Assembly (NCBI GenBank): GCA_947627375.1
Contig: CANQVR010000004.1
Span: 1-40,492 of the forward strand
Direction: 5' to 3'
Length of the DNA stretch: 40,492 nt
From: an uncultured Bacilli bacterium
GTDB taxonomy: Bacteria; Bacillota_I; Bacilli_A; RF39; UBA660
The notes beneath the pieces are model-generated. The model did not search any database, was not told the origin of the DNA, and worked only from the letters and a program-made list of their open reading frames with translations. Below are positions 2,295-39,277 of this stretch, piece by piece. Each line of letters opens with the position of its first letter. The first letter of the stretch is position 1. The position numbers and the translations under genes were made by a program.

Positions 2295-4349
2295 TTAATC
2301 ATCAAAGAAATCATCGAAAAATTCTTCATTATCATCTTCAGCAACTACTTCATTTACTAGAGAATGCTCATCTCTAGAAATATTTTCTTGTTTTTCAATT
2401 TCAGCTTGATTTCTTTTTTCTTCTGCTTCTAATTCTGCGATTTTAGCATCTATTTTTTTAACTAAGTCATCCATGTTAAATCCTAATGGCTCTTCTTTTG
2501 CTGGTTCTTCATGCATTTGTTGTGATGGTTGAACATCATTATTTTGATTCATCACATTAGGTGGTATGAATGGTGGTATCATGCCTGCTCCACCACTAGG
2601 AGGTGTAGGAGCATTACTTTGTTGATTTAACATTTCAAGTAATCTTTTTTGTCTTATTTCTTTTACATAAGTTTTTAAATCAAAAATATGAACTGGTTGT
2701 TTCTCTCTTTGAGGATATTCTGCTTTAGGATATTTTTTACCCCAATCTATTTTAAAGTCCGGTGTTTGCATAACTTTAAATGGTTGTTTTCTCATACGAA
2801 GTATAATTGCTTCAAACTGTTTCATACGTTGTAAATCACTTACTGTAACAAGTGGAGTTGAGGCTGTTTTATCATCTTTTTTAGATTTTACTTCACCACA
2901 CATTTTAGATATTTCTTCAAGAGCTGAAAGTTCTGCTGAAATAAGATAGATAATATTACCACAGTTACCTTTAATTGTTTCAGCATCTTCTTTCCCATAG
3001 ACACTATCAAGTTGAGCATAGTTTTGGATAATAAAAGTAAATCTAATTTGACGACTACGAGCGGCAGTAATCATAGTGGTTACATCTTTAAGAGGTGGCA
3101 TATTAGCAAACTCATCTAGTAAGAAATTAGTTCTTATCGGAAGTTTTCCACCAGCTTCTTGAGCAACTCTAATTAATGTTTCATAACATTGTTTCAATAA
3201 AATAGTAACTAATGAGTGATATGTTTTCTTTTCATCTTGAACTACTATAAATAAAGCTGTTTTTTCTTTACCGATAGTTGAAAGATCTAAGTCACTATAA
3301 GATAACATTTCACTTAAATTTTCACGGGATGCAAAAAGTTTTATTTTTTGTCTGAATACTGATAAAATACTACCTTTAGTATCATCAGGAGCATTTATTG
3401 TAGATGATGCGTTAACTGCAGCTGTCGATGTCGGATCTTTGGCATCAAAATAAGTTTTAATATAAGTAGATCCTGCAAATTTCTCTTCTCCAACAGTTGT
3501 CATTAAGTTAATACTGTTAATATTGACTTCTTCTTCAGCAGCATCTTCAAAAAGTCCTATGGCAACTCCTGCAAAATAATCAGCGGAAGTATTTTCCCAA
3601 AATGGATCATTATTTTTACTTGATTCATCATATAAGATATTTTGAGCAAGGTCATCTAATAACTCAATTGCTTTATCTTGATTCCCATTTTTATACATTT
3701 CATAAGGAAGCGAAAGTGGATTCCATGCATTTCCTTGTTGAGGATCACGGAAGTTTAGAATTAAAATATTATAACCTTTTTCTTTTAACATTTCGGCAGT
3801 TTCTTCATATATTTCACCTTTAGGATCAGTTATAATCATACTCTCACCTTTTTTAGCAAGAGATCTTACTTGAGGTTTAATAACTGTTTCAGTTTTACCA
3901 CTACCAGTAGATCCAATAACTAAAGTATGATATTCACCATCATCTACCCACATTTCTTCTTCTTTTAAAATAAGCGGAACTCCAGCAGCATTTGCTTGTT
4001 CCTCTCTTACTGGTATACAATCAAGTTCTGCTTGAATTTCTTTATCTTTTGCCCAACGACTATAACCTTTATCTTTTTTTTCTGAGGTAATTCCAAAACC
4101 TTTTTCCATATCAAAGAAAGTTGATTTTACACTAAAAATCAAGACTGCTAATGCAATAAAATAAAATACTATCGTAGTAAGAATTATATCATGATTAAAA
4201 GCAGGTAATGGATTTATACCTGAAAGTACTCCATCATGTGCTAGAGTGTAGATATTGGCAGTACAAATACACACTACATAAAACATGAATATAGCAAAAA
4301 TTGTAAAGATGATTAAGTCTTCTTTATCAGCTCTGAATTTTAACTTCAT
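2295..4349 (-). CDS. VirD4/TraG-type coupling protein ATPase
   Basis: A 684-residue type IV coupling protein, the hexameric inner-membrane ATPase that receives substrates and hands them to the channel. Two TM helices lie at about 11-33 and 55-73. They are followed by the nucleotide-binding domain with Walker A GSTGSGKT (146-153), the DPKGE strand, and Walker B LLDEFANMP (about 410-418), and then the TAARSRQIRFTFIIQNYAQL segment characteristic of TraG/TraD. The C-terminal tail (about 575-684) is Pro/Gln-rich, then a charged coiled-coil-like stretch, and ends in a striking acidic-aromatic motif, EEFFDDFFDD. RBS GAAAGAGG precedes ATG 4349, and a separate promoter lies at 4377-4405. There is no relaxase nearby, so the substrate may be protein rather than DNA. 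Family is certain; substrate unknown. Confidence 0.93.
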   Translation of the reverse strand: MKLKFRADKEDLIIFTIFAIFMFYVVCICTANIYTLAHDGVLSGINPLPAFNHDIILTTIVFYFIALAVLIFSVKSTFFDMEKGFGITSEKKDKGYSRWAKDKEIQAELDCIPVREEQANAAGVPLILKEEEMWVDDGEYHTLVIGSTGSGKTETVIKPQVRSLAKKGESMIITDPKGEIYEETAEMLKEKGYNILILNFRDPQQGNAWNPLSLPYEMYKNGNQDKAIELLDDLAQNILYDESSKNNDPFWENTSADYFAGVAIGLFEDAAEEEVNINSINLMTTVGEEKFAGSTYIKTYFDAKDPTSTAAVNASSTINAPDDTKGSILSVFRQKIKLFASRENLSEMLSYSDLDLSTIGKEKTALFIVVQDEKKTYHSLVTILLKQCYETLIRVAQEAGGKLPIRTNFLLDEFANMPPLKDVTTMITAARSRQIRFTFIIQNYAQLDSVYGKEDAETIKGNCGNIIYLISAELSALEEISKMCGEVKSKKDDKTASTPLVTVSDLQRMKQFEAIILRMRKQPFKVMQTPDFKIDWGKKYPKAEYPQREKQPVHIFDLKTYVKEIRQKRLLEMLNQQSNAPTPPSGGAGMIPPFIPPNVMNQNNDVQPSQQMHEEPAKEEPLGFNMDDLVKKIDAKIAELEAEEKRNQAEIEKQENISRDEHSLVNEVVAEDDNEEFFDDFFDD

Positions 4350-4376: not shown

Positions 4377-4405
4377 ATTATACATTAAAAAGCTTATTTT
4401 GTCAC
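4377..4405 (-). promoter_or_regulatory. Internal promoter for virD4-like gene
   Basis: GTGACA (4400-4405, 5/6 match to the -35 box) and a perfect TATAAT (4377-4382) are separated by exactly 17 bases, within the 55-base gap before the coupling-protein gene. It suggests that virD4 and the two genes after it can be expressed apart from the rest of the cluster. Confidence 0.6.
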
Positions 4406-5220
4406 TAATTATTAATATTTATACGGCTAATTTTATTATTTTTATAATCATATAAATTGAGTTTATATGTATCATCACTTAAATATTCACAATTACTTAT
4501 TATTTTATAACTATTGTCATTTGCAAAACTAAAGATACCATCTAAACTAGGTAAACAAATATTTTTAAGATCACTATCATTTACAACTTTACTATAAATA
4601 TTATAAATTTTATTATTTCTTTCTAAAAACATAAAACTAAACACTTTTTTTAAGTCATCATTAATCTTAGTCTTATTATAATTAACCATATTACTAATAA
4701 TATAAATATTACTACTTCTAATATTATCACCATTAAATGATACTTTATATTTTTTAATATAACTGACATTATAATCTTTTTCTAAATTATTTCTCATAAG
4801 CTGTTTTAAGATTATATCTTCATTTTCACCATAATCTTTATCTTCTCTAAACTCAACGTAATTTACTTTAGAAGTTCCTCCATAAGTTAAAAGTTTTCCT
4901 CTAGTATAGCGAGTTACTGTTTTATTTGGATCTATAGTCATTTCTAATTTATTATTAATAATCTCATATTTGATATTACCTTTACTTTCATTATCTACAT
5001 ATAAATCATACGTAATATCAGTATAACTTTTAGTAAAATCAGACTTACTTATAGATTTCCATTCATTATTAGATTCTTGATATAAAATATATTTATTATC
5101 ATTAAAAACAAAAACTTCATAATTAAAAACTTTTCTGACAATAGAAAACAAAAAGAAGATTATGAAAAAAATGCAAAAAATTATTATAGGAATAATTATA
5201 TTTCTTGTCATTCTTTTCAT
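4405..5220 (-). CDS. Membrane-anchored exported protein, paralogue of the upstream gene
   Basis: A 271-residue protein of unknown function with one N-terminal TM helix (about 8-30) and an extracytoplasmic remainder. By eye it is a diverged paralogue of the product of 5223-6035: both have a W-x-S/I-x-x-S/D-x-x-(x)-Y-like region, an R-G-x-L/I-x-YGG turn near residue 110 (RGKLLTYGG here, RGTIAYGG there), an I-Y-R/S segment near 205, and two cysteines in the last third (ICLPS and NCEYL here, GCRPS and SCTFF there). It begins two bases after the upstream stop codon behind a strong AAAGGAGG, so the pair is translationally linked. It is placed between the cell-wall hydrolase gene and virD4, where conjugation clusters often carry TcpC/VirB8-like bitopic proteins. 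That placement is suggestive but no VirB8 motif can be recognised. Confidence 0.6.
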   Translation of the reverse strand: MKRMTRNIIIPIIIFCIFFIIFFLFSIVRKVFNYEVFVFNDNKYILYQESNNEWKSISKSDFTKSYTDITYDLYVDNESKGNIKYEIINNKLEMTIDPNKTVTRYTRGKLLTYGGTSKVNYVEFREDKDYGENEDIILKQLMRNNLEKDYNVSYIKKYKVSFNGDNIRSSNIYIISNMVNYNKTKINDDLKKVFSFMFLERNNKIYNIYSKVVNDSDLKNICLPSLDGIFSFANDNSYKIISNCEYLSDDTYKLNLYDYKNNKISRININN

Positions 5221-5222
5221 TT

Positions 5223-6035
5223 TTAATCCTCCTTTAGTTTAGTAAAATCTATTAAAATATTTTTAAAATCTGTAGTTTTATTATTGTATTCATATAAATA
5301 ATTATTTACTTCTACAGCACTAAAGAAAGTACAACTGATAGCTATTTTAGGGTTATTATCTTTGTTAATTTTAAAAGCTGTAGAAATACTTGGTCTGCAT
5401 CCTTGATAATGAGTTTTAAATTTTTCAATAGAACGATATATAACTGTATTTTTATTATTTTTTCTTAAGAAAACAATAGAATATACTTTGGTTGGAGTTA
5501 TCATATCTTGATATGTATTACTAATAGCAAATATTTCTTCTTTTGTTCCATCATTATCTAAATCAATTAAGTATTTTTTCTTAAGAGGTGTATTTTCATC
5601 TAATACATCTTTTATATTTAATTGTTTTAAAACTCTATTGGCATAAGCATATTCTTTATTAGTCATATTGGTACTGGTATAAGAAATATTTTCTATTTTA
5701 ATATCACCACCATAAGCAATCGTTCCTCTTTCCCAAGAAATTGACTTTCTATTATTATCAAAAATATACCATTGTCCTTCACTATTCATTAAGTAATTAT
5801 TACCAATAAATTTTTGATTTTGATATATATCATATTTTTTCCAACTATAATCTTCTATTTCCGAATCAGGAATTTTAGCCCATTTCTGATCTGAATATAT
5901 CCATTTACTATAATTATCTATAAATATAGTTGCTACACCTTTATTCTTATTAGATTGATTTATAAAAATTATTACAGCCATTATGATAGCGTATATACCT
6001 AAACAAATAAATACAAGTTTATATCTTTTTTTCAT
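5223..6035 (-). CDS. Membrane-anchored exported protein with DxDNDG motif
   Basis: A 270-residue bitopic protein of unknown function: TM about 7-25, then an extracytoplasmic domain. Residues about 158-170 read LIDLDNDGTKEEIFAI, a calcium-loop-like DxDNDG motif as in FG-GAP/VCBS repeats and similar secreted proteins. Two cysteines follow (QGCRPS and ISCTFF). It is the partner and paralogue of the protein encoded at 4405-5220, though the DNDG loop is not kept there. It lies 11 bases after the stop of the 1135-residue hydrolase gene and belongs to the same operon. A VirB8-like assembly role is possible from position and topology only. Confidence 0.6.
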   Translation of the reverse strand: MKKRYKLVFICLGIYAIIMAVIIFINQSNKNKGVATIFIDNYSKWIYSDQKWAKIPDSEIEDYSWKKYDIYQNQKFIGNNYLMNSEGQWYIFDNNRKSISWERGTIAYGGDIKIENISYTSTNMTNKEYAYANRVLKQLNIKDVLDENTPLKKKYLIDLDNDGTKEEIFAISNTYQDMITPTKVYSIVFLRKNNKNTVIYRSIEKFKTHYQGCRPSISTAFKINKDNNPKIAISCTFFSAVEVNNYLYEYNNKTTDFKNILIDFTKLKED

Positions 6036-6046
6036 AATTTCTCCTT

Positions 6047-9000
6047 TTATCCGGCAACTTTATAATAAGCATAAGTATCTACCATTCCATTTGGATAGTA
6101 ATCTACCATATCAGTTTTATCTGAAGCTGGATCCATCATAATTACTCTACCATTTTCTACTCTATCTATAGCAACCCAGTGTTGTCCTGAACCATATCCT
6201 GTTACTTGAGCAACTACATAGTATCCTTGATCAATTAATTCTTTGGCTTTCTCTGCTTCATTACCAGAGACGCTTGTTCTTCCAACATATTGGAAACTTG
6301 GAGCGACGTTAGAGACTGCACCCCATACTAAGTCTCCACCATTAACAAAGCCACCATTATCGTTCATAGCTTGAACGAAAGTTCCTGGATTAAATTCTCC
6401 TTGAACAATAGTAGGTACTCCTGATTTGGCGATTAACATTGCAATAGAAGTTGCTAGACAACCTATGTTGGCAATACTACCTCCACCTCCAACAGAAATA
6501 CTACCCCATCTAGGATCCATTTGTGACCAAGAAGCATAGTCTCCAGCTGCAGCACTTCCAGCATTTTGCTCAACACAATCATCACTTGTATTAGAACTAC
6601 TACTACTGCTGCCATCACATGACATGCTTGCTATTTGTGCTGCTCCACTATAATGTTCGATTAATAGTTCAGTATAACTTTTACCTTGACTAGCCTGACT
6701 ACTCCAATTATTTTGAACAACGTTATTATAAGTAGTATTCATAACATAGCCATTGTTATCAACTAAAATTTTACCATTAGTCTCAGCAACTGCCGCACGG
6801 AAAGAACTATCTTGAGGAACTGGTCCTTTATTATCACATCCTAAATCAGGATCACAGTACACTTGATCGTTGGTACAGTTTCTGATTTGTAAAACCCACT
6901 CATCATTTTCTTTTGATAAACTTAAACCAGATGAGTTATTCATAGCTGCAGGTCTTGTTAAAGCAAAACTTCTGGCGGCTATGGCTTGGGCTTTGGCGGC
7001 TTCAGGAGGTGCTTCACTACCAATTTCGGCATAAGTTACCCCTAAAACATATTTTTCAAAATCTATAAGATCTCCACTTTCAGGTCCACTACCATCACAG
7101 GTTAAAGTTCGTACTTTTAAATTAGAAATATTTTGAGCTTGCTCTTGATTATTTCCATTAATATTAAAGCCTTTGATTTGGTATGCACAACTACCAGCAG
7201 TACTATTAACAGTAGTATCACAGTCATCTTCTTCTTTGCCTATTAAACTATAATAATCATCTTTGTGTTCAAATATATCGTCAACCATTTCATCTAGTTT
7301 ATCTTCGCTTTTAATTTTTGGTAGTTCTCCTTTGATAAAAGCTTTTAATTCTTGTCTTACTTCATCAGGTATTCCGTTAGCATCAGTTGAAGAAGTTGTA
7401 CTTGAAGTTGCGCTATTTGGATACTGAGGTGATCCATATCCTGAAACATCTGCAAAAAATCCTTGATTTAATTGATCTTGTTTTACTGCCACCTTATCTT
7501 CAGTAACAGTAGTGTTTCCTTCTATTGTGGTAAGTACTCCATCTTTATAATCAACAACTAAACCAACATGACCATGATCATAAAAGATAAGATCTCCTTG
7601 TTTAGGTTGATAACTACTATCACTAGATGGATGGAATAACCCCCTTTCCTCAAACCAAGATACTCCAGTAGCGGAAGATGAAAATTTTGGTATAACATCT
7701 TCTGAAATACCAGCTTGATTAGCACACCATGAAATAAACATGGCACACCATTCATCTGTTGGCAATCCATACCACTCACCAAATTTGGTTTTTCCACCAG
7801 ACTCTTCAGTATATCCTTCTTCTGCTTTGGCAATTTCTACAATTTTAGCAGCAGATGAAGCAGGAGCACCTGTTGTGGTATTAGTCGTTTGTGTCGTTGT
7901 AGTATTGGTATTCCCATTAGGTGGGAAACTTTCTGTTGCAATGATATTTGGATTTGAGGCTGCAAAATCTTCAAAATAAACAAATCCACCTGCTGCTGCT
8001 TGCGCTTGCTTTAAAGCCATTGCAGTATCTTTTCCTACATATCTATAATGCCACTCTTCAGTTGTTCCACCATAATCAGCGGGATTATATCTTCTAAACC
8101 ACCCATATTCAGCTCCATGAGCTTCTAACCAAGCATATCCATCACTAGCGGCAACATCGATTGTTGTTCCAAGTTGATGCTCAGAAAAACCTGGAGAAGC
8201 TGCACGTGGGGAACCATACATAGCATATACAGCTTCTTGTTCTGCATAACTACGATAACCATCATTTAAAGATAATGATACTCCAGCTGCAGCTGCAGCA
8301 GCTTTCATATTTTCATAAGCAGTAGCTGCGACGTCTACAAGCTGATATTGTTCACCTGGAATAGCACGGGTCTGAGGAATATAAGCAGCATCTAATGGCC
8401 TTCCCGAACCAACTATTCTAAATAAACTTGAAACATTATCAACATCAAGTATTATTTTATCACCTACATTATAAGTAGTAGTAATAGTTCCAGTACCATT
8501 ATTACCACTTACTCCTCCTGTTGCTGTTGATGATGACAAATTAGCGGGTACTTTACTAAAAATTCCTGCTAGTTTATGAATTTTATTATCATTAAGGAAA
8601 AATCCTTGCAAACGTCTATTATCAGTAATATCATCATATCCATAACTTCCACTATTAGAATATTGTTCATTATCTATTAAAATAGCAAGAGTTGAAGAAA
8701 TATAATCAGGATTAAAATTTTTATTACTATTATATTCTTTCTTTAAAGCACTTATATATGCTCGTTCAGAAGAACCACCTTCTGTATTTTTTTCTTCAAT
8801 GGTAAAATTTTCTATTAAAGGTTCTACCCTTATCGTACTAGAAATAAAATTAGCAGTATAATTAGCAACAGCCGTAGATATAAAAAATAATATAAAAACT
8901 AAAGCTAGTGGTAAAGCTATAACAAATATTAATATTTTTGTTTTTAATTTTATAAAACCTTTACCAAATGTTGATAATATATTACTTTTATTTTCTTCTG

Positions 9001-9454
9001 AATTATTTTGACCAGCTACACCACTTTTATTTTTTTGATCACTGTCATCCTTTTTCTGTCCATTTTCGTTTTCTTTTTTTTCTTTCTTTTTATTATTTTT
9101 TTGTGAAAAAAATTGATTTAATTGATTAATTCCTTTTATGGCACCACCAATACCAGGTATATACTCAGCTGCTTTTCTAATAGTTGGATTTCCACCTAGT
9201 CCTGGTAGACGATCTAGTAAGGTTTTTTGTTTTTTGTTATTATTATTTGTATTAGAATTATTATTTTGTTTATTATTTTGTATATTATTTTTGTTTCCAA
9301 GATTTCTTCTTAAATCATTTACTTTGTTTTTTGCTTTTTCTTTGGTGTAATCTTTTATTTGATTTCCTATTCCACCAGAAGATTTACTTTTATTTTTATT
9401 TCTTCTGCTGGATCCACGAGCAGTATATTTTTCATCTTCTGGCATCCTATTCAC
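6047..9454 (-). CDS. Membrane-anchored four-domain peptidoglycan-processing protein (VanY, CHAP, SpoIID, C39-like)
   Basis: This 1135-residue protein occupies the VirB1/CwlT place of the secretion system, opening or remodelling the wall for the channel. In order it has: a disordered Asn/Lys-rich cytoplasmic region (1-170); one TM (about 172-195); an unassigned segment (200-340); an M15/VanY-type D,D-peptidase domain (about 352-475, SEHQLGTTIDVA with His426/Asp433 and EEWHY with His469); a CHAP amidase/endopeptidase domain (about 534-675, DEWCAMF with Cys570, and the HGHVG His); a SpoIID/LytB-like domain (about 795-938, YAEIGSEAPPEAAKAQAIAA with the catalytic-type Glu); and a C39-like papain-fold domain (about 970-1130, NIGCLATS with Cys999, QHWVAIDRV with His1092, then an Asp). 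Thr/Ser-rich linkers separate them. All key catalytic residues appear present. It starts 11 bases after virB4. Typical T4SS hydrolases carry two catalytic domains, so four is exceptional. Confidence 0.9.
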   Translation of the reverse strand: MNRMPEDEKYTARGSSRRNKNKSKSSGGIGNQIKDYTKEKAKNKVNDLRRNLGNKNNIQNNKQNNNSNTNNNNKKQKTLLDRLPGLGGNPTIRKAAEYIPGIGGAIKGINQLNQFFSQKNNKKKEKKENENGQKKDDSDQKNKSGVAGQNNSEENKSNILSTFGKGFIKLKTKILIFVIALPLALVFILFFISTAVANYTANFISSTIRVEPLIENFTIEEKNTEGGSSERAYISALKKEYNSNKNFNPDYISSTLAILIDNEQYSNSGSYGYDDITDNRRLQGFFLNDNKIHKLAGIFSKVPANLSSSTATGGVSGNNGTGTITTTYNVGDKIILDVDNVSSLFRIVGSGRPLDAAYIPQTRAIPGEQYQLVDVAATAYENMKAAAAAAGVSLSLNDGYRSYAEQEAVYAMYGSPRAASPGFSEHQLGTTIDVAASDGYAWLEAHGAEYGWFRRYNPADYGGTTEEWHYRYVGKDTAMALKQAQAAAGGFVYFEDFAASNPNIIATESFPPNGNTNTTTTQTTNTTTGAPASSAAKIVEIAKAEEGYTEESGGKTKFGEWYGLPTDEWCAMFISWCANQAGISEDVIPKFSSSATGVSWFEERGLFHPSSDSSYQPKQGDLIFYDHGHVGLVVDYKDGVLTTIEGNTTVTEDKVAVKQDQLNQGFFADVSGYGSPQYPNSATSSTTSSTDANGIPDEVRQELKAFIKGELPKIKSEDKLDEMVDDIFEHKDDYYSLIGKEEDDCDTTVNSTAGSCAYQIKGFNINGNNQEQAQNISNLKVRTLTCDGSGPESGDLIDFEKYVLGVTYAEIGSEAPPEAAKAQAIAARSFALTRPAAMNNSSGLSLSKENDEWVLQIRNCTNDQVYCDPDLGCDNKGPVPQDSSFRAAVAETNGKILVDNNGYVMNTTYNNVVQNNWSSQASQGKSYTELLIEHYSGAAQIASMSCDGSSSSSSNTSDDCVEQNAGSAAAGDYASWSQMDPRWGSISVGGGGSIANIGCLATSIAMLIAKSGVPTIVQGEFNPGTFVQAMNDNGGFVNGGDLVWGAVSNVAPSFQYVGRTSVSGNEAEKAKELIDQGYYVVAQVTGYGSGQHWVAIDRVENGRVIMMDPASDKTDMVDYYPNGMVDTYAYYKVAG

Positions 9455-9465
9455 CTACTTCTTTT

Positions 9466-11256
9466 TTATAATCCTCCACCGCTTCCAAAAGAATCTAATT
9501 CTTCTTTTGTTACAGTAACACTTATTCTCATTCTTCTGTTTCCACATACAAATAAAGCTTCTCCTTGAGAATAACGTTTTATACTTTCACGTTCATTATC
9601 GTTTAAGTCTATTAATAATCCTAAATCTTCTACTGCTTGTTTCTTTAATCCCATAACTAAATAATATGAAGCATTATCGAAGATTGCTTTTCCTTGAGTT
9701 ATAACACTAGGATCAGAAAAATCACTAGGTTGTTGAGTAATTATAATAGTTCCTGTGTTATATTTACGTGCACGTCTTTGCATTTGAGCAAGGAAATCTG
9801 CTCCTAATGCATTATTATCACCAAGTAAAACATGAGCTTCATCAACCATTAAAACAGTATTTACACTAGAATCTAAACATAATCCCCAAGCATACTTTAA
9901 GATATTGAAGAATAAAGCGTTTCTAACATTACTATCACTATTCATTAATTCACGAATATTGAAAACCATAAAATCACTTTCATCATTTACAGTTGTATGA
10001 CCATCAAAATAAAATCTTAATTCTTTAGTTATAGGTCTAACTTTAAGTTCAAGTTTTTCCATAATTTCACGTTCTTGAGTTTGTTCAGTCATAGACATAA
10101 GTCTACCTTTGATTGTTGCATAAACATCAGTAAAAGTTGGAAAATCTTTTGATGTAAATGTTGAAAAATCAGTATTATAATCAATTCCAAATCTACGATA
10201 AGTATCTTGTACAATCTCAGAAAACATTGTTAAAACACTTTCTTCAATAGATGGATCATAATATCTCATAAAAGCTTTTAAAAATTGTAATGTTCTTGTT
10301 AAAACAGTATAACCTAAACCTTGTTTTATTTCTTCTTCATCAGCATCTATTACTACTTCTAGTGGATTAATTAATCCATATTCTCCACCTTTACCCATAT
10401 CGATAGTGTCTCCACCATAAGTTTTTGTTATCTCTTCAAGTTCGTTTTCAGGGTCAATCGCAACGATTTGACAACCATTTCTAATATGGCCACGTAGCAA
10501 AAGTTTAGCTGCAGTAGATTTTCCTGATCCTGAAGTACCAAGTATAATCATATTGGCATTATTTCTATTATTTTCTTTTCTTTCTTTATATAAAAATTGA
10601 TTGAATAAAATTACTCCTCCAGAGAAATCTACTCCTAGTAAAGTGGACAAGCCTGGGTCTTTGATACTGTCAAAAATAAATGGATACATAGCTGCAATAG
10701 TAGTTGAAGGAATTGGTGTTCCAATTCTTTCTTCTACGTCTTGATTTGGAAAAACAGGTAAAATAGATTTAAAGACTTTTTCTTGTTCAAAACGTAGAGA
10801 AATTGCTTTTAATTCCATTGCATCTAAATAATTTTTAACATTAACTTTTTTTAATTCTAAATCTTCTTTTGTATCAGCAGTAATCATGATGTGCATTTGA
10901 AAATCAAATATTCTAGCTTGACTAGCGGCAAGCATAGAAGTAAAATATTCCAAACTTTCGGCATCTTGTCTAATTTTTTCCTTTAAAGTAACATCTTTTT
11001 CTTGACGATATTTCTCTCTTAAATCTGCAATTTGTTTATTTAACATTTTAGACATCGCAGAAAATGGGATTGGAATGTGTTTTACGACAACTTTAATTCC
11101 TGGCATATTAGTAAGTGTTGATAAATAACCAGGAGAAATATATTTTGGATAAGACACTACTGTTAATATTGTGGCATATTTATCACTAATGAAGAAATCA
11201 CTTGGATTAAAATGTAGCCCTTTTGGTGCTATTTGAGATTTTAATGATGTACTCAT
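9466..11256 (-). CDS. VirB4/TraE-type ATPase (main part of a split VirB4)
   Basis: A 596-residue VirB4-family ATPase, the conserved motor at the base of every T4SS. The first 220 residues correspond to the middle VirB4 domain (VVKHIPIPFSAM and following). The ATPase core carries Walker A LGTSGSGKST (about 239-248), AIDPENE after the first strand, Walker B VLMVDEAH (about 468-475), and the RRARKYNTGTIIITQQ sensor region typical of VirB4/TraC. The usual N-terminal domain is missing and is encoded by the preceding gene, which overlaps it by four bases (ATGA). Full-length VirB4 proteins are usually about 650-850 residues, so the two together restore the expected size. Soluble, membrane-associated by partners. 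Family is certain. Confidence 0.93.
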   Translation of the reverse strand: MSTSLKSQIAPKGLHFNPSDFFISDKYATILTVVSYPKYISPGYLSTLTNMPGIKVVVKHIPIPFSAMSKMLNKQIADLREKYRQEKDVTLKEKIRQDAESLEYFTSMLAASQARIFDFQMHIMITADTKEDLELKKVNVKNYLDAMELKAISLRFEQEKVFKSILPVFPNQDVEERIGTPIPSTTIAAMYPFIFDSIKDPGLSTLLGVDFSGGVILFNQFLYKERKENNRNNANMIILGTSGSGKSTAAKLLLRGHIRNGCQIVAIDPENELEEITKTYGGDTIDMGKGGEYGLINPLEVVIDADEEEIKQGLGYTVLTRTLQFLKAFMRYYDPSIEESVLTMFSEIVQDTYRRFGIDYNTDFSTFTSKDFPTFTDVYATIKGRLMSMTEQTQEREIMEKLELKVRPITKELRFYFDGHTTVNDESDFMVFNIRELMNSDSNVRNALFFNILKYAWGLCLDSSVNTVLMVDEAHVLLGDNNALGADFLAQMQRRARKYNTGTIIITQQPSDFSDPSVITQGKAIFDNASYYLVMGLKKQAVEDLGLLIDLNDNERESIKRYSQGEALFVCGNRRMRISVTVTKEELDSFGSGGGL

Positions 11257-11819
11257 ACTGGCATCACCGCCCCAAATTCTGTTGTATCTCCTCCATTTAA
11301 GAAATTATCTAAAATAACTCTTAAATCATCATTATTAGCTTGAGAAGCATTAAGCCCACAACTGGCAAGTCCATTTATTAAAAGACGTACTTTCTTTTGA
11401 ACCATATCTTCATCAGTTTCTTGAAACATTATATAATACTCAGTATCAACAATATTATTGTTAATAAAAGTTTGTCCTTTTTCTATGTCTTGCATAATAA
11501 GTTTTTTTATCGCAGGTGATGGTGTATCATTATATAAAAGTTGTAATTGTGAAAGATAGACTGATATATCAACAGGTCTATCGGCTACAACTAACCAAAA
11601 CTCAAAATCAATCATATTATAAAAGTTTTTCAAACTAATTAATATATTATCTTGAGCGTTTTGTTCAAGAATAAATATATTTCTAGGTAAAACTTTTACT
11701 CCTGCTACTCTTTTTTTATTAGAGGTTATAATCATCCCATTTTGTATTGCTTCGACAGGTAACCAATCTTCAGTCCATTTACTGGATGTTTGTTGTTGAT
11801 TCTTTTTCATCCATGCCAT
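11253..11819 (-). CDS. VirB4 N-terminal domain as a separate protein
   Basis: A 188-residue soluble protein with no TM or signal. Its features match the N-terminal TraC/VirB4 domain: opening DWLPVEAIQNGMIITSNKKRVAGVKV, a strand-helix unit IDFEFWLVVADRPVDISVY, and a second alpha/beta repeat (YYIMFQETDEDMVQKKVRLLINGLASCGL). It lies exactly where the missing start of VirB4 should be: its 3' end overlaps the next gene by four bases, and its 5' end overlaps the PrgI gene by 41 bases. Translational coupling would give equal amounts of the two halves. I read it as a fixed gene split rather than a recent frameshift because the downstream half has its own start and ribosome site (GGTGATG). PrgI-VirB4 order is standard in Gram-positive T4SS and supports the call. 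Confidence 0.7.
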   Translation of the reverse strand: MAWMKKNQQQTSSKWTEDWLPVEAIQNGMIITSNKKRVAGVKVLPRNIFILEQNAQDNILISLKNFYNMIDFEFWLVVADRPVDISVYLSQLQLLYNDTPSPAIKKLIMQDIEKGQTFINNNIVDTEYYIMFQETDEDMVQKKVRLLINGLASCGLNASQANNDDLRVILDNFLNGGDTTEFGAVMPV

Positions 11820-12114
11820 TTCTTATACACCAACCTTTCCAATAGTATTTTTGTCTATTTGTCATAAACTCATATAATTCTCCCAATATTGTAAGTAAAT
11901 TATGATAGTATGGAAGAGGTATTACTAGAAATCCTGTGATTAATGCTGGTAGTAATATTAATACTACAGTTATAGTATCTGCGATAGGAACTAACGCAAG
12001 TAATATAATTGAAATTACTACTCCAATTCCAAACATAATCAAATCAAAAGTCCTAAAAATACCAAATATGAGCATTCCTTTTTTTGTATTTGCAGGAATC
12101 AAATATCCATTCAT
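11779..12114 (-). CDS. PrgI/VirB3-like inner-membrane protein
   Basis: A 111-residue protein with the PrgI family layout: short N-terminus (YLIPANTKKG, close to the usual IP.nl.......G pattern), then two closely spaced hydrophobic helices (about 28-46 and 49-67), and a basic C-terminus around RQKYYWKGW. PrgI is the Gram-positive VirB3 counterpart and docks VirB4 at the membrane; in conjugation operons it precedes VirB4 directly, as here. Its last 41 bases overlap the next gene in another frame, a tight coupling. The match is by length, topology, motif and position. Confidence 0.8.
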   Translation of the reverse strand: MNGYLIPANTKKGMLIFGIFRTFDLIMFGIGVVISIILLALVPIADTITVVLILLPALITGFLVIPLPYYHNLLTILGELYEFMTNRQKYYWKGWCIRNGMDEKESTTNIQ

Positions 12115-12146: not shown

Positions 12147-14213
12147 TTAAGGTCCTGGATGTCCTCCTGGAGGTCTACCACCAGGTACTGTAGATACATC
12201 TTTTTCTCCTTCTACTGTTGATAAATTATCTTGTGTTTCAGAACCAAACTTATTACTCTTTTTAAAGTCTCTCCTATCTCTTATAGGTCTTGTAACAGTA
12301 TCTTTTATAGTATCTCTTATAGGTCTTGCAACATAAGAATTGTCTTCAGATTGATCTTGTTGAAATTGACTATATTCATATTTGTTTCTATATGTCTTAC
12401 CACCATATTCATCAATAACTCTTCCTGAAATATCATAATTTTTATCACGTATAGTTTTAATTTTTTCATAATCTCTTTGAGTATCTCCTACTATAGCTGC
12501 TGCTTGAGAAGCTTTATCTTGTAATTCTTTATGATATTTATCGTTATATTCAATTTGCCCAGCAGACGCTGCTGCTTCATATCTTTTTAATTCATTGTCA
12601 GTCTTTATTTGATTTTGCTGAGCATTTAACCAAGCTTTTTTAGCTTTATCTTCATTTTCTTTTGTAAATCCATATTTAGATGCAACTCTGTCTTTATGCA
12701 TATAATCAAATCTATCTTGTAATTTACCGACAAATCCTCCACGTGCATTTTTATCACCAGTTTTAATTTGTCTTGCCAAATCTCTTTGTTGTCCCCAAAT
12801 TCCACCAATTGGTGCTTGCTTTCCTTGATTGTAAGCATCTTTTTGAGCTTCAGCTCCAGCAAGTGCACCTGCAGCAAATCCAGCAAGTCCTCCTCCACCT
12901 AATAGACGAGCACTTCCTCCAAGAAATCCAGCAAGTCCAACATTACCCATGTTGCCTTTTAAGCCTAAAGTATCTTTTATATATTTAGGAGCCATTCTTG
13001 CAAAGAAGAACAAACCAATAATTATAAATATAAGTGAAACTACACCAATAGTAGTATCATGAGCAAACAAATCACTAGAAAAATCGCCTTTTAATAGTCC
13101 ACTGGCAATATATATTACAAAGTATATTATTCCAAGTCTTAAGAAAATATCTATATAAGTAGAAAATAATGATTTTACCCAAGCTCCAAACATTCCTCCG
13201 TCTTTAGAAACTTTTGGACTTGCATAACTTATTGCTGCGATAGGGCCTAAAATTCTTAAGACTACTAACTTAAATATCCTAATAGAAATATCAATTGTAA
13301 AGAATAAAATTGTAATTGCTAAAAAAACACCAGCAGCTGTTGAAAAGCCAAATAAATAAACAAATTGATAATAATCGCCATCTTCTGGTAATCCTCTTTC
13401 TTCATGATCATTTATATTACATTTATTGTCAACATAACCAAATAAATAATTTACATTATATTCATCATTATAAAATTGTTGTCTTCCATTTTCCCCATCA
13501 AATTCTTGAGTCTCCCCACATACATATTTCTGTTTTGGAGATACTTCTTCATTAGTATTTTCATCATATTGAGGATTTAAATTAGGTTGAATGAAAAGTC
13601 TTAATATCTCAGTTGCCATATACTCACCAGCGACATCAAGCGGATCATCTTCTCCACTTTGTCCATTCATAAAAGTTTCTTCACCATTCGCATTTGTATT
13701 GCTTCTTCCCAATATTAATTTACCGAGTAAGTTCGTCTCTAAGACTCTATTCTGAAAATAAGTAAGTGTACCAAATAAAATACCTTGTTCATTTAATGAA
13801 CCTTCCCAAGAAATAACAGTATTTTTTCCTTCTTTAGTATAAACATTTTCTGAAGCTCCTGGGATATTTAAAGGAATCATCATCATTAATAAAATTAATC
13901 CAATAATAACTCTACCAATTATTTTAGAAAATCCTTTTTCTCTATCTGTAAATATATCGGGGTTTACAATTCCTTGAACAATATATACTGCAAAACTAAA
14001 TAAGAAAAAGATACCAACAATAAGTTGTAGTCTGCCTATCAAACTTTTTATTACATCTCCACCTATAATATTTTGATTAGCAACATTTAAAAATACCTTA
14101 TAAATAAATACTAATAGTCCATATATTATACCATCTATTGATGCAAAAAACTGTCTAATAATAGTTAAATACCAAGTATATTTATTAACATTTGATAGCA
14201 TTTTAAATGTCAC
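12147..14213 (-). CDS. VirB6/TrbL-like polytopic channel protein
   Basis: A 688-residue polytopic protein. TM helices are seen at about 27-46, 62-81, 100-118, 290-310, 315-331, 355-372 and 388-406, with a cysteine-containing loop of about 170 residues between the third and fourth. The fifth-helix segment KLVVLRILGPIAAISYAS is characteristic of the TrbL/VirB6 and Gram-positive conjugation membrane proteins (Orf15-like). A Gly/Ala-rich stretch follows (about 420-455), then a charged, probably coiled-coil cytoplasmic tail with repeated VxRPIRDTI/VTRPIRDR units near 640-660. VirB6 forms part of the inner-membrane channel. It lies between the VirB2-like genes and PrgI, the standard order. Confidence 0.85.
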   Translation of the reverse strand: MTFKMLSNVNKYTWYLTIIRQFFASIDGIIYGLLVFIYKVFLNVANQNIIGGDVIKSLIGRLQLIVGIFFLFSFAVYIVQGIVNPDIFTDREKGFSKIIGRVIIGLILLMMMIPLNIPGASENVYTKEGKNTVISWEGSLNEQGILFGTLTYFQNRVLETNLLGKLILGRSNTNANGEETFMNGQSGEDDPLDVAGEYMATEILRLFIQPNLNPQYDENTNEEVSPKQKYVCGETQEFDGENGRQQFYNDEYNVNYLFGYVDNKCNINDHEERGLPEDGDYYQFVYLFGFSTAAGVFLAITILFFTIDISIRIFKLVVLRILGPIAAISYASPKVSKDGGMFGAWVKSLFSTYIDIFLRLGIIYFVIYIASGLLKGDFSSDLFAHDTTIGVVSLIFIIIGLFFFARMAPKYIKDTLGLKGNMGNVGLAGFLGGSARLLGGGGLAGFAAGALAGAEAQKDAYNQGKQAPIGGIWGQQRDLARQIKTGDKNARGGFVGKLQDRFDYMHKDRVASKYGFTKENEDKAKKAWLNAQQNQIKTDNELKRYEAAASAGQIEYNDKYHKELQDKASQAAAIVGDTQRDYEKIKTIRDKNYDISGRVIDEYGGKTYRNKYEYSQFQQDQSEDNSYVARPIRDTIKDTVTRPIRDRRDFKKSNKFGSETQDNLSTVEGEKDVSTVPGGRPPGGHPGP

Positions 14214-17538: not shown

Positions 17539-18321
17539 TTACATTGCAAACATGCCCATCATTGCTATAAGAACTAAAACCATAACTCCTCCACCAGTCA
17601 TTACTAACATGATCATAGTTTGATTTTCCATATGGTTTAATCTTTCTTTATATTTTATTTCACGAGCTTTATTTTGTAAGTTTGAAACAGTTCTGGAAAA
17701 CATCATTAGACTTTCATGTTTTCTTTCTTGAGAACCAATTCCAAGACGATACAAAAGTCTCATCATTCTCATAGAATCTCTAACTGGATAAAGATTAGCA
17801 AAATCCATATAAGGATTAATACTAGAATCACCAGCATTAACTTTTTCTATCAATTGTCTTAATCCAGGTTTAAAAATATCTGGTGCATCATCTAATGATT
17901 TACCAATAGCAACAGGTACAGTGTAATGTTGTATTAAAATTTCTAAGCTCTTTAAATAGTATGGCAACATTACATCTATATCATGCAAATGTTTTTTATA
18001 ATATGATTTTAATTGACTATAAGGCATTTTAAATATATAGTATGTAACTCCTAAAGTTATACAAATATTTAAAATAGATAAATTATTTAAAAACAATACT
18101 AGGAAACAACATCCACCAAGTATGGCATAAGTTATTCTTCTTCTATATAGAATATCTACATCAACGTCATCTCCATATTTAGCATATACTAAGAAAGTAT
18201 AATCCTCTTCTCTTAACATATTAAAATACTTTTCATTATCAGCAATAAATTTCTTCTTATCTATAACATTTGTATATACTAATAAGAAAATCATTATAAA
18301 TCCAAAAATTAATATTTCCAT
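17539..18321 (-). CDS. TadC-like pilus platform protein
   Basis: A 260-residue membrane protein of the T2SSF/TadC type. TM at 1-20, two helices about 68-102, a cytoplasmic helical domain (LKSYYKKHLHDIDVMLPYYLKSLEILIQHY ... DAPDIFKPGLRQLIEKV ... MRMMRLLYRLGIGSQERKHESLM), and a C-terminal TM pair (about 236-260). Pairs of such proteins form the inner-membrane platform on which the CpaF ATPase acts. Its start overlaps the tadB stop by one base (TAATG). Assignment rests on topology, the domain pattern and the place after cpaF and tadB. Confidence 0.8.
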   Translation of the reverse strand: MEILIFGFIMIFLLVYTNVIDKKKFIADNEKYFNMLREEDYTFLVYAKYGDDVDVDILYRRRITYAILGGCCFLVLFLNNLSILNICITLGVTYYIFKMPYSQLKSYYKKHLHDIDVMLPYYLKSLEILIQHYTVPVAIGKSLDDAPDIFKPGLRQLIEKVNAGDSSINPYMDFANLYPVRDSMRMMRLLYRLGIGSQERKHESLMMFSRTVSNLQNKAREIKYKERLNHMENQTMIMLVMTGGGVMVLVLIAMMGMFAM

Positions 18322-19217
18322 TATTCAGCACCTACATTCTCGTTATAATATTTTTCACCTTTAAGGAGAAAATAACTATTCGATAAAATTGTAAAATGAA
18401 GTAATGCTTGAACATACCATTTTTCTAATAAATTTATGTAACTATCAGTTCCTACTAAATACTGGACTGTCATAACTAAGATATAAAGCATCAGTCCAAA
18501 CTGTAAGAATTGTTTATGGAAACTTGCTCTATCAATTCGATCACGATATACACTTTCAACAAGCATATCGATATCTTGTTGCATATTTTCCAAACTGTCA
18601 GCAGAGTTTCTCGCACCTTCATTTGTAATTTGTAAAAATAATTGATGCATATTTTTGACAATATAATATGGATATAAATTATTCATGTAATCTAAAGATT
18701 CATCTATCGTACCATTTTGATAAGCAAGTTCTATCATATGACTTACATCTCTTTTTACGGGATCTTCAAGTGTTCCAGAATTTCTTACTCCTTCTAAGGC
18801 TTTAACAAAAGATTGGGTTGTAGCAAATTCCATAATAGTATTAGTTGTATAAACTTGTACTTGCTCGAAAAGAAATTCACTATAGATTCTTTTACATCTT
18901 AGAAAAGAAAGATATGGTATAAACATAATGACAATTATTACATAAATAACACTGACAATTAGATTGTAAAAATAAACCCAAGATACTATTGCTGTGAATG
19001 CAGAAAATATTAGTACTTGAATAGTATATTGTCTAAATGTATACTCTTGTCCTAATTGTTTAGTTTTTTCTCTTACAACTTGAAACGAATAAGGAGCAAA
19101 TCGATTGAATAATACTTGAGTTTGTTCTACAAAATATTTTGAAACATTTTGTCCTCGATAATTTCTATATATTAACCAAAAGCCACCTATCATTAATAGT
19201 ATAATTAATTCTATCAT
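18321..19217 (-). CDS. TadB-like pilus platform protein
   Basis: A 298-residue polytopic protein: N-terminal TM (1-18), a helix pair about 70-106, a cytoplasmic helical domain with AYQNGTIDESLDYMNNLYPYYIV and NMQQDIDMLVESVYRDRIDR, then two C-terminal TM helices (about 244-262 and 274-292). This is the T2SSF-domain layout of TadB. The gene lies 15 bases after the CpaF/TadA ATPase gene and is coupled by a one-base overlap to tadC, as in classical tad operons. Confidence 0.8.
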   Translation of the reverse strand: MIELIILLMIGGFWLIYRNYRGQNVSKYFVEQTQVLFNRFAPYSFQVVREKTKQLGQEYTFRQYTIQVLIFSAFTAIVSWVYFYNLIVSVIYVIIVIMFIPYLSFLRCKRIYSEFLFEQVQVYTTNTIMEFATTQSFVKALEGVRNSGTLEDPVKRDVSHMIELAYQNGTIDESLDYMNNLYPYYIVKNMHQLFLQITNEGARNSADSLENMQQDIDMLVESVYRDRIDRASFHKQFLQFGLMLYILVMTVQYLVGTDSYINLLEKWYVQALLHFTILSNSYFLLKGEKYYNENVGAE

Positions 19218-19232
19218 AATATTTCCTCCTAA

Positions 19233-20546
19233 CTACCCTTGTACATTTGCTACGTTTGACCCTGGTGTATTAACAACTTGTGGTTGTTGTATACTTTGCG
19301 ATGGTATAACTGGAGTTGTGGGTACAGCTTTTATGGTTGGTATTTTATTTTGTCCTGTGTTTGTATTTTGATTGTTTGCAACAGAAGTTTGAGTTGGTGT
19401 TGAAGTCGTTTGTGGTTTAGGAGTTGGAGTATTTTCTTTTGAATTATTTCCAACACTTTTTAAAACACTATCTTGTTCTATTTCCTTATCACTCATATGA
19501 CCAGCAATACTTTCAATATCAACGTTTTGATTTGCAAGATACTCCATTAAATGTTGACTAGGCCTTCTTTGAACTGGAGCTTTACCTAAAATCTTTTGGT
19601 AAATAACTCTAGTTTGAGGCTCATTATTATCATCAACATAGAATTCTGTAACTTCATCTACTTCACGATGGAATTTACCATATTCTTTACTATAGAATGC
19701 TTTTATATGAACACCTATTTGAATATATCTATAAATAGTATTCAAGAATTGATCTACTTCAATATCACTTTCAAGCAAACTATAAAGACGATATGGAATA
19801 GACGCTGCTTTATCAGCATGAATTGTCGATAAAATATTATGTCCAGATGATATTGAATTTCGTACAGCTGTAACAGCTTCAGCACTACGAACTTCTGATA
19901 ATAAAATCCATTTTGGATTTTGTCTCATGCAAGTAACTAAAACGTCTGAATAGGAAGCAATATTATTAGTCTTCATTGCTACAATATCTCTTTGAGGAAA
20001 TATTCTATCTAAGTGAAGTTCTAGTGTATCTTCGATGGTAATAACTTTTTCGTTAACTTTTGTATGACTAGCTAAGTATTTTACAAACTCAGTTTTACCT
20101 GAACCAGTCTCTCCTGCAACGATAATATTGCAATGCCCTTCAACACATTTTATTAAAATATCATGAATATCAGCGGTGAAATAATCTTCTTGTAATAATT
20201 TTTCTTTCTCTAAACGAATTTTAGCGGGAGTTTTACGAATAACACATGCAATACCATTAGTTGCAATAGATTGATGAACAAAGTTAAGACGTAGTTCAGC
20301 ACTTTCTGCATCTAGGAATGGTTTTGCATTGTTAAAAGTAGTTCCCATTACATTAGAACACTGAAAAGCAAGTTTCTCCATAAAGTCGGAACTTGCTCCA
20401 GGTACTTCTACTCTAAGAGATCCCTGGTTTAAAGAACGAACCCAGATTTGGCCACCATTACAAAATGAAATATCGGTAATATCATCGTTATCTAGTAATG
20501 GCTTTAAAGGTCCAAAATCTAATTTGTCAAAAATATTCTCGTTCAT
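19233..20546 (-). CDS. CpaF/TadA (VirB11-family) secretion ATPase
   Basis: A 437-residue hexameric ATPase that powers pilus assembly. N-terminal domain (1-110) with DITDISFCNGGQIWV, then the RecA-like core: Walker A GETGSGKT (145-152), Asp box ITIEDTLEL, Walker B WILLSEVRS (about 213-221), and His box SGHNILSTIHAD (about 234-245), all hallmark residues of the CpaF/VirB11 family. The last 80-100 residues are an unusual Pro/Thr/Gln/Asn-rich, probably disordered tail that CpaF proteins normally lack. CpaF and VirB11 are one superfamily, and monoderm T4SS generally have no VirB11, so this protein may serve both the Tad and T4SS halves. Family is certain; double service is a hypothesis. Confidence 0.93.
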   Translation of the reverse strand: MNENIFDKLDFGPLKPLLDNDDITDISFCNGGQIWVRSLNQGSLRVEVPGASSDFMEKLAFQCSNVMGTTFNNAKPFLDAESAELRLNFVHQSIATNGIACVIRKTPAKIRLEKEKLLQEDYFTADIHDILIKCVEGHCNIIVAGETGSGKTEFVKYLASHTKVNEKVITIEDTLELHLDRIFPQRDIVAMKTNNIASYSDVLVTCMRQNPKWILLSEVRSAEAVTAVRNSISSGHNILSTIHADKAASIPYRLYSLLESDIEVDQFLNTIYRYIQIGVHIKAFYSKEYGKFHREVDEVTEFYVDDNNEPQTRVIYQKILGKAPVQRRPSQHLMEYLANQNVDIESIAGHMSDKEIEQDSVLKSVGNNSKENTPTPKPQTTSTPTQTSVANNQNTNTGQNKIPTIKAVPTTPVIPSQSIQQPQVVNTPGSNVANVQG

Positions 20547-20589: not shown

Positions 20590-21396
20590 TTATTTATCCT
20601 CAGTCCATACAGTAACTTGATTTATAAAGTTTTCAAGATCTTCGTTTGTAACATTTACATCACCAGGATTATTCTTTAAGCTTTCATTTGTTGGAACAAT
20701 AACAATTTCACTGTTATAAGTTCCTAAATATGAAGCTTTTTTAAGTAATACATAATACTCTTGTGGTAATGCAAAGATTATCATAGATGGTGTTGTCTTT
20801 TCATCAAGATTAGCAAATACAGAATTACCATCTGAATCTTTTACTGCTAGAACCTTAACATTTTCCATTAATTTTCCATACATAATTTGATCACTAACTG
20901 CTGTTGTTGTTCCTTCAGGTTCTTTCTTAGTAATTCTTAAATATATATCTATATAATTATCAGGATAAATTGAATTACCATAAGTAGTTTCAGTATTAAC
21001 ATTTAAATTATATAGAACATATCCTTTTGGATAATCTAGAATTATACTAGCAGGTAATTGTTCTTTTTCAACTACACTTCTAGAATAGAATAAACTTCCT
21101 TCAGGAATTACACTATCAGCACTAGTGTATTTATCAATTACTTCTGATGCGCTAGTAATTACATCACCTTCTAGCATTGCTGGTGGAACTTGTCTAGTTC
21201 CAACCATACTTTCAGTAATTTGAATACCAGGTGAAATAGTTTCTCTTGCATAAGGAACCTCTACTGGATTAATAGCCTGACTTACTCTAGCATTATATCC
21301 AAAATATAATACTAGAATAGCAACTACTACACAAACTACTGTAACTGTGTTTTTATTAGCCAAAAATTTTTTAAATCCCATTGTTATATTATTCAT
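20590..21396 (-). CDS. CpaB/RcpC-like SAF-domain protein
   Basis: A 268-residue protein with an N-terminal TM (about 17-35) and an SAF domain (about 45-110: VPYARETISPGIQITESMV ... ASEVIDKYTSADSVIPEGSLFYSRSV), then an RcpC-type C-terminal beta domain (YPDNYIDIYLRI, VKVLAVKDSDG, IIFALPQEYYVLLKKA, and IVIVPT). CpaB/RcpC proteins accompany Tad pili in both diderms and monoderms and are thought to act outside the membrane near wall glycan. It lies directly upstream of the CpaF gene. The LPQEYYVLLKKA helix is a standard RcpC feature. Confidence 0.85.
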   Translation of the reverse strand: MNNITMGFKKFLANKNTVTVVCVVVAILVLYFGYNARVSQAINPVEVPYARETISPGIQITESMVGTRQVPPAMLEGDVITSASEVIDKYTSADSVIPEGSLFYSRSVVEKEQLPASIILDYPKGYVLYNLNVNTETTYGNSIYPDNYIDIYLRITKKEPEGTTTAVSDQIMYGKLMENVKVLAVKDSDGNSVFANLDEKTTPSMIIFALPQEYYVLLKKASYLGTYNSEIVIVPTNESLKNNPGDVNVTNEDLENFINQVTVWTEDK

Positions 21397-24900: not shown

Positions 24901-24966
24901 CAATACGCTAAAGAAACCTGCAATTATAATCGCTATAATAGCCAACCCAATATTACGCTTTTTCAT
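21952..24966 (-). CDS. Large secreted cysteine-rich protein, candidate pilus adhesin or cap
   Basis: About 1004 residues: a basic start, one hydrophobic helix (signal peptide or anchor, about 6-27), and a long extracytoplasmic region with about 31 cysteines. Cysteine clusters are DMCVNKCDGGKYSDSCVDKC, TSGCTNTCVWIGC, and GLCYCG. A Ser/Lys/Thr linker sits near 430 and an acidic loop (DKDADGEQEE) near 860. The C-terminus (AAAKKKENK) has no sortase signal or second TM. I could not recognise a domain family. I start at ATG 24966: AGGAG abuts the earlier ATG at 24975 with no spacing but is nine bases from this one. It overlaps the sortase gene's end and precedes the pseudopilin and cpaB genes, so a role as surface-exposed tip or adhesin is likely but unproven. 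Confidence 0.75.
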   Translation of the reverse strand: MKKRNIGLAIIAIIIAGFFSVLAFNTKVTNKVFAKTNSTQNDQDTCESFVYRNLSQQDDPENRTTTLVNNSSEDLTVVVSKTVNGQTLPDEPEQILKANDKFVYSYGEKNSKIEIRYTVTRKTGNNRCVVQYETQAPSITGDLPNPHIDLCNRWINGEKIKVDKNRTLNSNLDSMDEAKKQEFTNRKRNFNYCQSVVSNRLPEDVLLKSMKTFETAFEASYVDPNEKVKHDSDIEELGNLSDYEEVKDTKNVNGGNALQCKSNSVYLNPNLLESKEINGLRMNNTTESTNGKPNLYLYKHTEVHDVTYTPVYNKKPQPDVPVCTVTCTEYLKVNFDPPQAVKGGACFSYSVQVISKTICDSEVKENSAPQMQKSCTPVPHCNNYALHNYAGPNEDFDMCVNKCDGGKYSDSCVDKCYKKTYEDEDKSDSKSKTTKETTKATKTKVTLNDYAENILAKKMANNVQCPGPHPSVQELRDWAQNTVTGSYYMDNGQIKYRILEPYFSSDCYWAFYAPWYLIVDTERTLSHDAMNTNGNGGPWGLYGPSASPSNRNNPSNGGYGFSVHWRDMDTSGCTNTCVWIGCEAGSIRSAEELQEEYDANVQKYNQALAECSAEAKCRTTDSKTSTFTIGTKKQDESWEAHNTTVNEKADSSSSGTCSSDGAKIILSRDSGNTKDTLVDGTGGLCYCGDSEYGKWHHYTRWTFPGSWYNYKNGKVRNTPPTSGNEDSYEGGYNLYCISDEEDEVNVDWWKEYNKNITDDKVGRENLKDMQPDDYNIWAKSTNFGNYGWNLNMECFYGVYNHSGDEPECDSNDPNCEATTSDDDDEITSSNNVRIKAASTADLLPDKDADGEQEEAFNWSDEASKLDIEGYEIAPEAYKKAVEEREDTIFENEDQLDYQFVLTGNDMKAIVDSDDGKYGNYERFSNGSEIFAKNTNYILRAYESGLFRGGPITYKKAPSKGGLKCNNIAPGGSSCETFASYYSPEVAALKSRIDAVAAAKKKENK

Positions 24967-38451: not shown

Positions 38452-38506
38452 ATTTTTTTCCTCACTTCTTTCTTTATATTTTTATTTTATAATTAAATGT
38501 TTAAGG

Positions 38507-39130: not shown

Positions 39131-39170
39131 CTCTCTCCCTTCTCTCATATTTTTTTATTCAGCAATGTTA

Positions 39171-39251
39171 TTAAGCAGTTGCTTTAACATTTACTAACTA
39201 TAATTTATTATTCACCATAAATTTTACTTTAACCGTGAAACTTTCTTTCAT
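39171..39251 (-). pseudogene. Degenerate fragment resembling the end of a TasA-like paralogue
   Basis: An 81-base frame in the gap between copies 1 and 2 reads MKESFTVKVKFMVNNKL, stop, LVNVKATA, stop. MKES equals the start of copy 1, and FTVKVKF plus VNVKATA resemble the C-terminal strand of the paralogues (FKMKVNVTATG in copy 1). It looks like a deletion relic of a fourth copy. Short length makes chance similarity possible. Confidence 0.35.
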
Positions 39252-39277
39252 ATGTTTTTTCTTATCACTTGGATAAA

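Follow-up and report, generated by a model that had tools for sequence, protein, structure and literature searches.

What does a membrane protein that carries four different wall-acting domains do amid the genes of a secretion machine, and is its domain set a peculiarity of one bacterium or one version of something more general? The question is raised by a gene of an uncultured Bacilli bacterium, located at 6047..9454 (-) of the window, by which we mean the whole stretch of 40 492 nt analyzed here.

A membrane-anchored protein with four domains of wall-acting type

The gene has a GTG start and no internal stops and encodes a membrane-anchored multidomain hydrolase of 1135 aa in the VirB1/PrgK position. 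A basic, Asn/Lys-rich cytoplasmic N-terminus (residues 1–173, 8936..9454 (-)) is followed by a single TM helix, recognized by its hydrophobicity (residues 174–192, 8879..8935 (-)), and by an extracellular stalk (residues 196–350, 8405..8869 (-)) in the same position as the stalk common to relatives with differing catalytic domains. Residues 116–202 gave a weak match to the CD1108 family (mobile element), which stays below the cut-off. Behind the stalk we observed three domains above the Pfam gathering score. The M15/VanY metallopeptidase domain (residues 351–490, 7985..8404 (-)) matches PF02557 at residues 372–475 (E 1.5e-17) and contains the zinc/catalytic motif HxxxxxxD...EWH with H426, D433, E467 and H469. 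The CHAP domain (residues 551–680, 7415..7804 (-)) matches PF05257 at residues 568–647 (E 5.6e-9), has the Cys-His motif (C570, H629) and strongly matches phage endolysin families (phrog_9589, E 2e-25). The SpoIID lytic-transglycosylase domain (residues 741–960, 6575..7234 (-)), supported by Pfam and motif and weakly by a model, matches PF08486 at residues 797–898 (E 1.9e-13), with E810 as the catalytic Glu and a conserved Cys pair in DQVYC.PD.GC. Chance domain matches are ruled out by these E-values and motifs. A displaced sporulation gene is ruled out as well, as the SpoIID domain scores 39.4 bits against the sporulation equivalog TIGR02870, far under its cut-off of 234.75.

The fourth domain (residues 968–1135, 6050..6553 (-)) has no Pfam match in the window protein and hence stays below the PF13529 cut-off, for which reason we call it C39-like and do not file it as a PF13529 member. 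Its assignment comes from aligned relatives, a model and a fold search. In the relative L078, Peptidase_C39_2 is found above the Pfam cut-off at residues 754–927 (E 9e-9), and 6 of 52 members match it at E ≤ 0.01. The window protein has the C39-like residues Q978, C999, H1092 and D1108; an alignment of 47 C39 sequences has Q, C and H in every row and D conserved to at least 90%. The AF2 model of the domain reached a pLDDT of 94, and Foldseek matched it to C39/papain-like peptidases (3erv, PCAT1, ComA and the pseudomurein endoisopeptidase PeiR) with E-values of 1e-4 to 6e-3 and a TM-score of about 0.5; besides PeiR, the nearest folds include bacterial toxins (CDI) and leader peptidases. Alignment and model thus agree on the papain-like Cys-His-Asp triad and the fold of a C39-like peptidase. 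A PDB sequence search with the domain alone returned no match, and a PDB search with the C39 profile returned 3erv as its sole, non-significant match.

The initial annotation had placed four such domains behind one TM helix, each with its key catalytic residues. This holds: VanY, CHAP and SpoIID pass Pfam, only the fourth domain is missed there and is recovered through relatives and model, and the motifs are intact in all four. Structure prediction, which it had suggested as a check, bears out part of the set, with a confident model for the C39-like domain and, in a second model, a SpoIID region that weakly matches SpoIID/SleC structures (E 0.007–0.04). The 786-aa model is poor over M15 and CHAP because MAFFT misplaced their few rows and left no usable alignment; with low-confidence models, these two assignments rest on Pfam and sequence motifs. 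A membrane anchor with extracellular wall-acting domains is the mark of VirB1-like hydrolases, and the window protein has both.

The gene belongs to a T4SS cluster

The hydrolase gene sits between virD4 (VirD4/TraG coupling ATPase, 2295..4349 (-)) and a split virB4, whose C-terminal part (9466..11256 (-)) and N-terminal part (11253..11819 (-)) are separate genes. Further upstream in the direction of transcription lie a tentative PrgI/VirB3-like gene (11779..12114 (-)), assigned because it weakly matches the N-terminal portion of a mycoplasma ICE VirB4 model, a VirB6/TrbL-like polytopic protein with weak matches (12147..14213 (-)), pilin-like genes and a Tad-type set. This set contains TadC- and TadB-like membrane proteins (17539..19217 (-)), recognized by position and hydrophobic layout and having no relevant Pfam or NCBIfam match, a TadA/VirB11-type secretion ATPase (19233..20546 (-)) and a CpaB/RcpC-like protein below curated cut-offs (20590..21396 (-)). 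The secretion operon of the initial annotation is accordingly a T4SS with VirD4, VirB4, PrgI-like and VirB6-like proteins.

Several further observations concern the surroundings. The PrgI-like gene and the two virB4 parts (9466–12114) successively match parts 2–96, 93–277 and 294–891 of NF045975, a single mycoplasma ICE VirB4 model. Between 15345 and 21396 T4SS and Tad-type genes stand in one conserved cluster; a 2025 review describes VirB11 homologues as universally absent from Gram-positive T4SS (PMC12857230). The Tad part is retained even in some relatives that carry it elsewhere in the genome. Two fast-evolving one-TM proteins are encoded between virD4 and the hydrolase gene (4405–6035), the one at 5223–6035 having no Pfam match, and most relatives have one or two genes of similar size at this place; these small proteins may be partners of the hydrolase. 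The Tad part also holds a 1007-aa Cys-rich protein (21952–24975) with no Pfam match, adjoining a sortase (24953–25768), which is a candidate pilus tip or adhesin. Three proteins (1078–2271, 25780–27564 and 36241–37614) share a similar C-terminal pattern, G.G....PYII, which in the first is DUF6273-like below the cut-off, and apparently form a surface protein family. Finally, three tandem related proteins at 37741–39913 look, by eye, like TasA/camelysin-type surface proteins.

The cluster is most likely inherited with the chromosome

We found VirB4 in 29 of 36 genomes of the same family at 68–93% identity, with the gene order of the window in most relatives; the named relatives are uncultured gut Bacilli including Candidatus Onthousia and Candidatus Faecimonas. 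VirB4 and a close TadA occur together in 28 of these genomes, both are absent from 4 and 4 are discordant (Fisher p 0.003, with no correction for kinship or incomplete genomes). The hydrolase is less conserved: even that of the same-genus genome G002 is only 43% identical, compared with 68–93% for VirB4 across the family.

VirD4, VirB4, PrgI-like and VirB6-like proteins are of conjugation type, NF045975 is the best match of the window VirB4, and relatives hold other T4SS loci with C39-bearing proteins, all of which would suit a mobile cluster in which the protein serves a conjugative element (ICE). We nevertheless consider this quite unlikely. VirB4 is near family-wide and its gene order conserved, none of the relaxases of the three families searched (PF03432, PF01076, PF02486) is linked to the cluster, and 13 of the 29 VirB4-positive genomes lack them altogether; further genes of the contig look, by eye, housekeeping-like (greA-like, murI-like). 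From the near family-wide VirB4 and the lack of a nearby relaxase of these three families we therefore conclude that the cluster is most likely an inherited chromosomal machine and not a mobile element. Searches of plasmid and phage collections gave no full-length relative of the hydrolase, with coverage of at most 16% of the protein among the matches listed.

Domain sets at the hydrolase position

Proteins encoded at the same position in relatives comprise 101 sequences, 99 of them distinct. At least one wall-acting domain is present in 98 of the 99, and a glycan cutter is paired with a peptide or amide cutter in 75. We counted about 20 architectures among the 101 proteins: SpoIID-C39 is the commonest (49), followed by M23 (15), glucosaminidase-CHAP (6) and M23-lysozyme (6), while the 17 remaining ones have one to three examples each. 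Domains were called with custom profiles derived from segments that Pfam had located; any domain overlooked in this way raises the counts of change given below. M15-CHAP-SpoIID-C39 was found only in the window and in the genus-mate G002 (L065). Set against the combination of SLT/muramidase with CHAP or NlpC of VirB1-like hydrolases, CHAP is present in the window protein and SpoIID replaces SLT, and relatives use NlpC/P60, M23 and lysozyme.

The view that SpoIID is unusual in a secretion operon is not supported by this comparison, since no other catalytic domain is as frequent at the position (63 of 101 proteins). Moreover, the lineage itself carries Spo0A and SpoIVA, and SpoIID domains are known in proteins outside sporulation (PMC6635528). 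The genome of the window encodes three further SpoIID-domain proteins (L002, L003, L004), two of which have, by eye, apparent peptidoglycan-binding repeats as in the spore cortex-lytic SleC, and one of which adjoins an amidase-like gene.

C39 is accompanied by SpoIID in 54 of 55 cases at the position, although these sequences are related and not independent. Outside the core cluster, a C39-like domain (43–48% identity) is found in proteins of 446–551 aa, L096 (G009:C1), L097 (G005:C5) and L098 (G010:C37). In L097 and L098 it is the C-terminal domain, and since both lie near other, distant VirB4/VirD4-like genes, the domain occurs in other transfer systems as well. In L142 (residues 355–596) and its relatives, the group counted as M23 only, the M23 domain is followed by a conserved domain with AGTEQGW...NFWGIG that looks glucosaminidase/lysozyme-like by eye; as it has no Pfam match and its profile retrieved nothing related from the PDB, we excluded it from the domain counts.

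Ordinary autolysins and phage lysins are built from the same domain types, and the protein might accordingly be a general autolysin or cell-separation hydrolase whose T4SS neighbours are coincidental. Its gene, however, keeps its place next to virB4/virD4 in nearly every relative despite the changes of domains, and in G035, where virB4 is on a different contig, the hydrolase gene (L092) still stands beside virD4. As the head-TM-stalk layout is moreover that of VirB1-type proteins, we see little chance that this explanation is right. A VirB1/PrgK-type hydrolase of the secretion machine fits better.

Exchange of catalytic parts on a conserved anchor

The architectures were mapped onto a 100-row VirB4 tree. 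Parsimony on this quick tree, which lacks an outgroup root, gave at least 35 changes of architecture and at least 23 changes of the first glycan domain. Close pairs differ in their catalytic sets: glucosaminidase-CHAP in L151 and M23 in L152, glucosaminidase-CHAP in L103 and SpoIID-C39 in L109, CHAP in L117 and SpoIID-C39 in L112. L151 and L152 are 55–81% identical per 40-column block over residues 1–190, where their alignment ends, and identity between L142 and L144 is 40–70% up to column 200 and about 20% beyond it. Stalk identity is 63% for L142/L144 and 44% for L101/L105; for the window stalk, L065 alone has a recognizably similar counterpart (40%). In L101 the glucosaminidase-CHAP part matches the endolysin family phrog_1309 over residues 421–689.

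Because anchor and stalk are similar across differing catalytic sets, we conclude that the anchor stays while the catalytic part is exchanged. This exchange of catalytic cassettes at a fixed T4SS position, an unexpected feature, is well supported by the sequence comparisons. The set of four domains seems to be an elaboration within the genus, with M15 and CHAP added to the widespread SpoIID-C39 form, a direction that we infer from the tree lacking an outgroup root.

Polymorphic toxins, too, quickly replace their C-terminal cassettes behind a constant N-terminus, and the C39-like fold is near CDI toxins. The protein could thus be an anti-competitor effector whose C-terminal domains attack neighbours and are swapped like toxin tips. 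We give this only a very slight chance: the protein is TM-anchored, an unsystematic look at the locus revealed no immunity gene pattern, and a hydrolase adjoining virB4 is what one expects of a Gram-positive T4SS.

Proposed function

Taken together, the window protein is probably the peptidoglycan hydrolase, of VirB1/PrgK type, of a T4SS that uncultured gut Bacilli inherit with their chromosome, because it lies between virD4 and virB4, has the matching topology and shares its position with proteins of which 98 of 99 have a wall-acting domain. Its cytoplasmic head and TM helix would hold it at the secretion machine, and the stalk would carry the catalytic domains into the wall to open a local hole. 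There M15, CHAP and probably the C39-like domain would trim stem peptides and cross-links, SpoIID would then cut the bared glycan strands, and the hole would serve the secretion channel or a pilus. The sequences show the domain content, the intact motifs, the topology, the conserved place in the genome and the repeated exchange of catalytic cassettes; the activity of every domain, the sequence of steps and the use of the hole are what we infer. Against a wall substrate of the C39-like domain speak the frequent cleavage of proteins by C39 peptidases and the toxins and leader peptidases among its nearest folds. The association of C39 with SpoIID suggests that C39 supplies the first step.

SpoIID-type enzymes cut glycan strands once an amidase has taken off the stem peptides (PMC6221140, PMC6635528). 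The SpoIID of C. difficile is inactive on intact peptidoglycan without SpoIIP (PMC6221140), whereas that of Waddlia works with an amidase and is also lytic on intact peptidoglycan (PMC6635528). A caution against assuming activity for all four domains comes from PrgK, of whose three domains only one is active in vitro while the others down-regulate it (PMC11323569). M15 and CHAP in the window's genus may likewise serve regulation, or else further peptide trimming. The complete wall-opening tool proposed by the initial annotation remains a plausible description of the four-domain protein.

More broadly, and with slightly more doubt than confidence, we propose that cassettes are exchanged at the T4SS hydrolase position, where a conserved head-TM-stalk would take interchangeable sets of glycan and peptide cutters, some apparently from phage lysins; the commonest set, SpoIID with C39-like, would be a one-chain counterpart of SpoIID-SpoIIP, and the C39-like domain a previously unrecognized peptidoglycan amidase/endopeptidase. 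If the swap pattern is true, it is a natural experiment with about 20 hydrolase designs on one secretion machine and shows what wall cutters the machine needs, usually one for glycan and one for peptide. It would predict wall-cutting activity for the C39-like domain and place SpoIID domains in routine use outside sporulation, within T4SS.

Comparison with known systems

A limited literature search found no description of this hydrolase set or cluster. The VirB1-class hydrolases of Gram-positive T4SS are membrane-anchored with at least one extracellular catalytic domain, and three in PrgK (PMC12857230, PMC11323569). PrgK of pCF10, a DELTA-class VirB1 protein with LytM-SLT-CHAP (PMC11323569), resembles the window protein in its N-terminal intracellular part, its membrane anchor, its multiple extracellular domains of wall-acting type and its T4SS operon. 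The window set of M15, CHAP, SpoIID and C39-like, however, has only CHAP in common with it, and the window system is chromosomal and family-wide. TraG of pIP501 and Orf14 of Tn916, of the ALPHA and BETA VirB1 classes (PMC12857230), are likewise membrane-anchored VirB1 homologues, and TraG also has CHAP; in contrast to the window protein, TraG has two catalytic domains, and SLT stands in place of SpoIID, with no M15 or C39.

The engulfment DMP pair SpoIID-SpoIIP similarly has SpoIID cut glycan alongside a partner that cuts peptide or amide bonds (PMC6221140), but in the window protein SpoIID and a C39-like domain are parts of a single polypeptide encoded in a non-sporulation operon; C39 would be the partner of SpoIID here, as SpoIIP is there. 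Modular phage endolysins (CHAP, glucosaminidase-CHAP) are alike in the phrog_9589 and phrog_1309 matches, whereas the window protein is membrane-anchored and encoded in a T4SS cluster, not as a lysis gene. Judged by sequence, what is new with respect to known VirB1-type hydrolases is a different domain set in the same position and topology.
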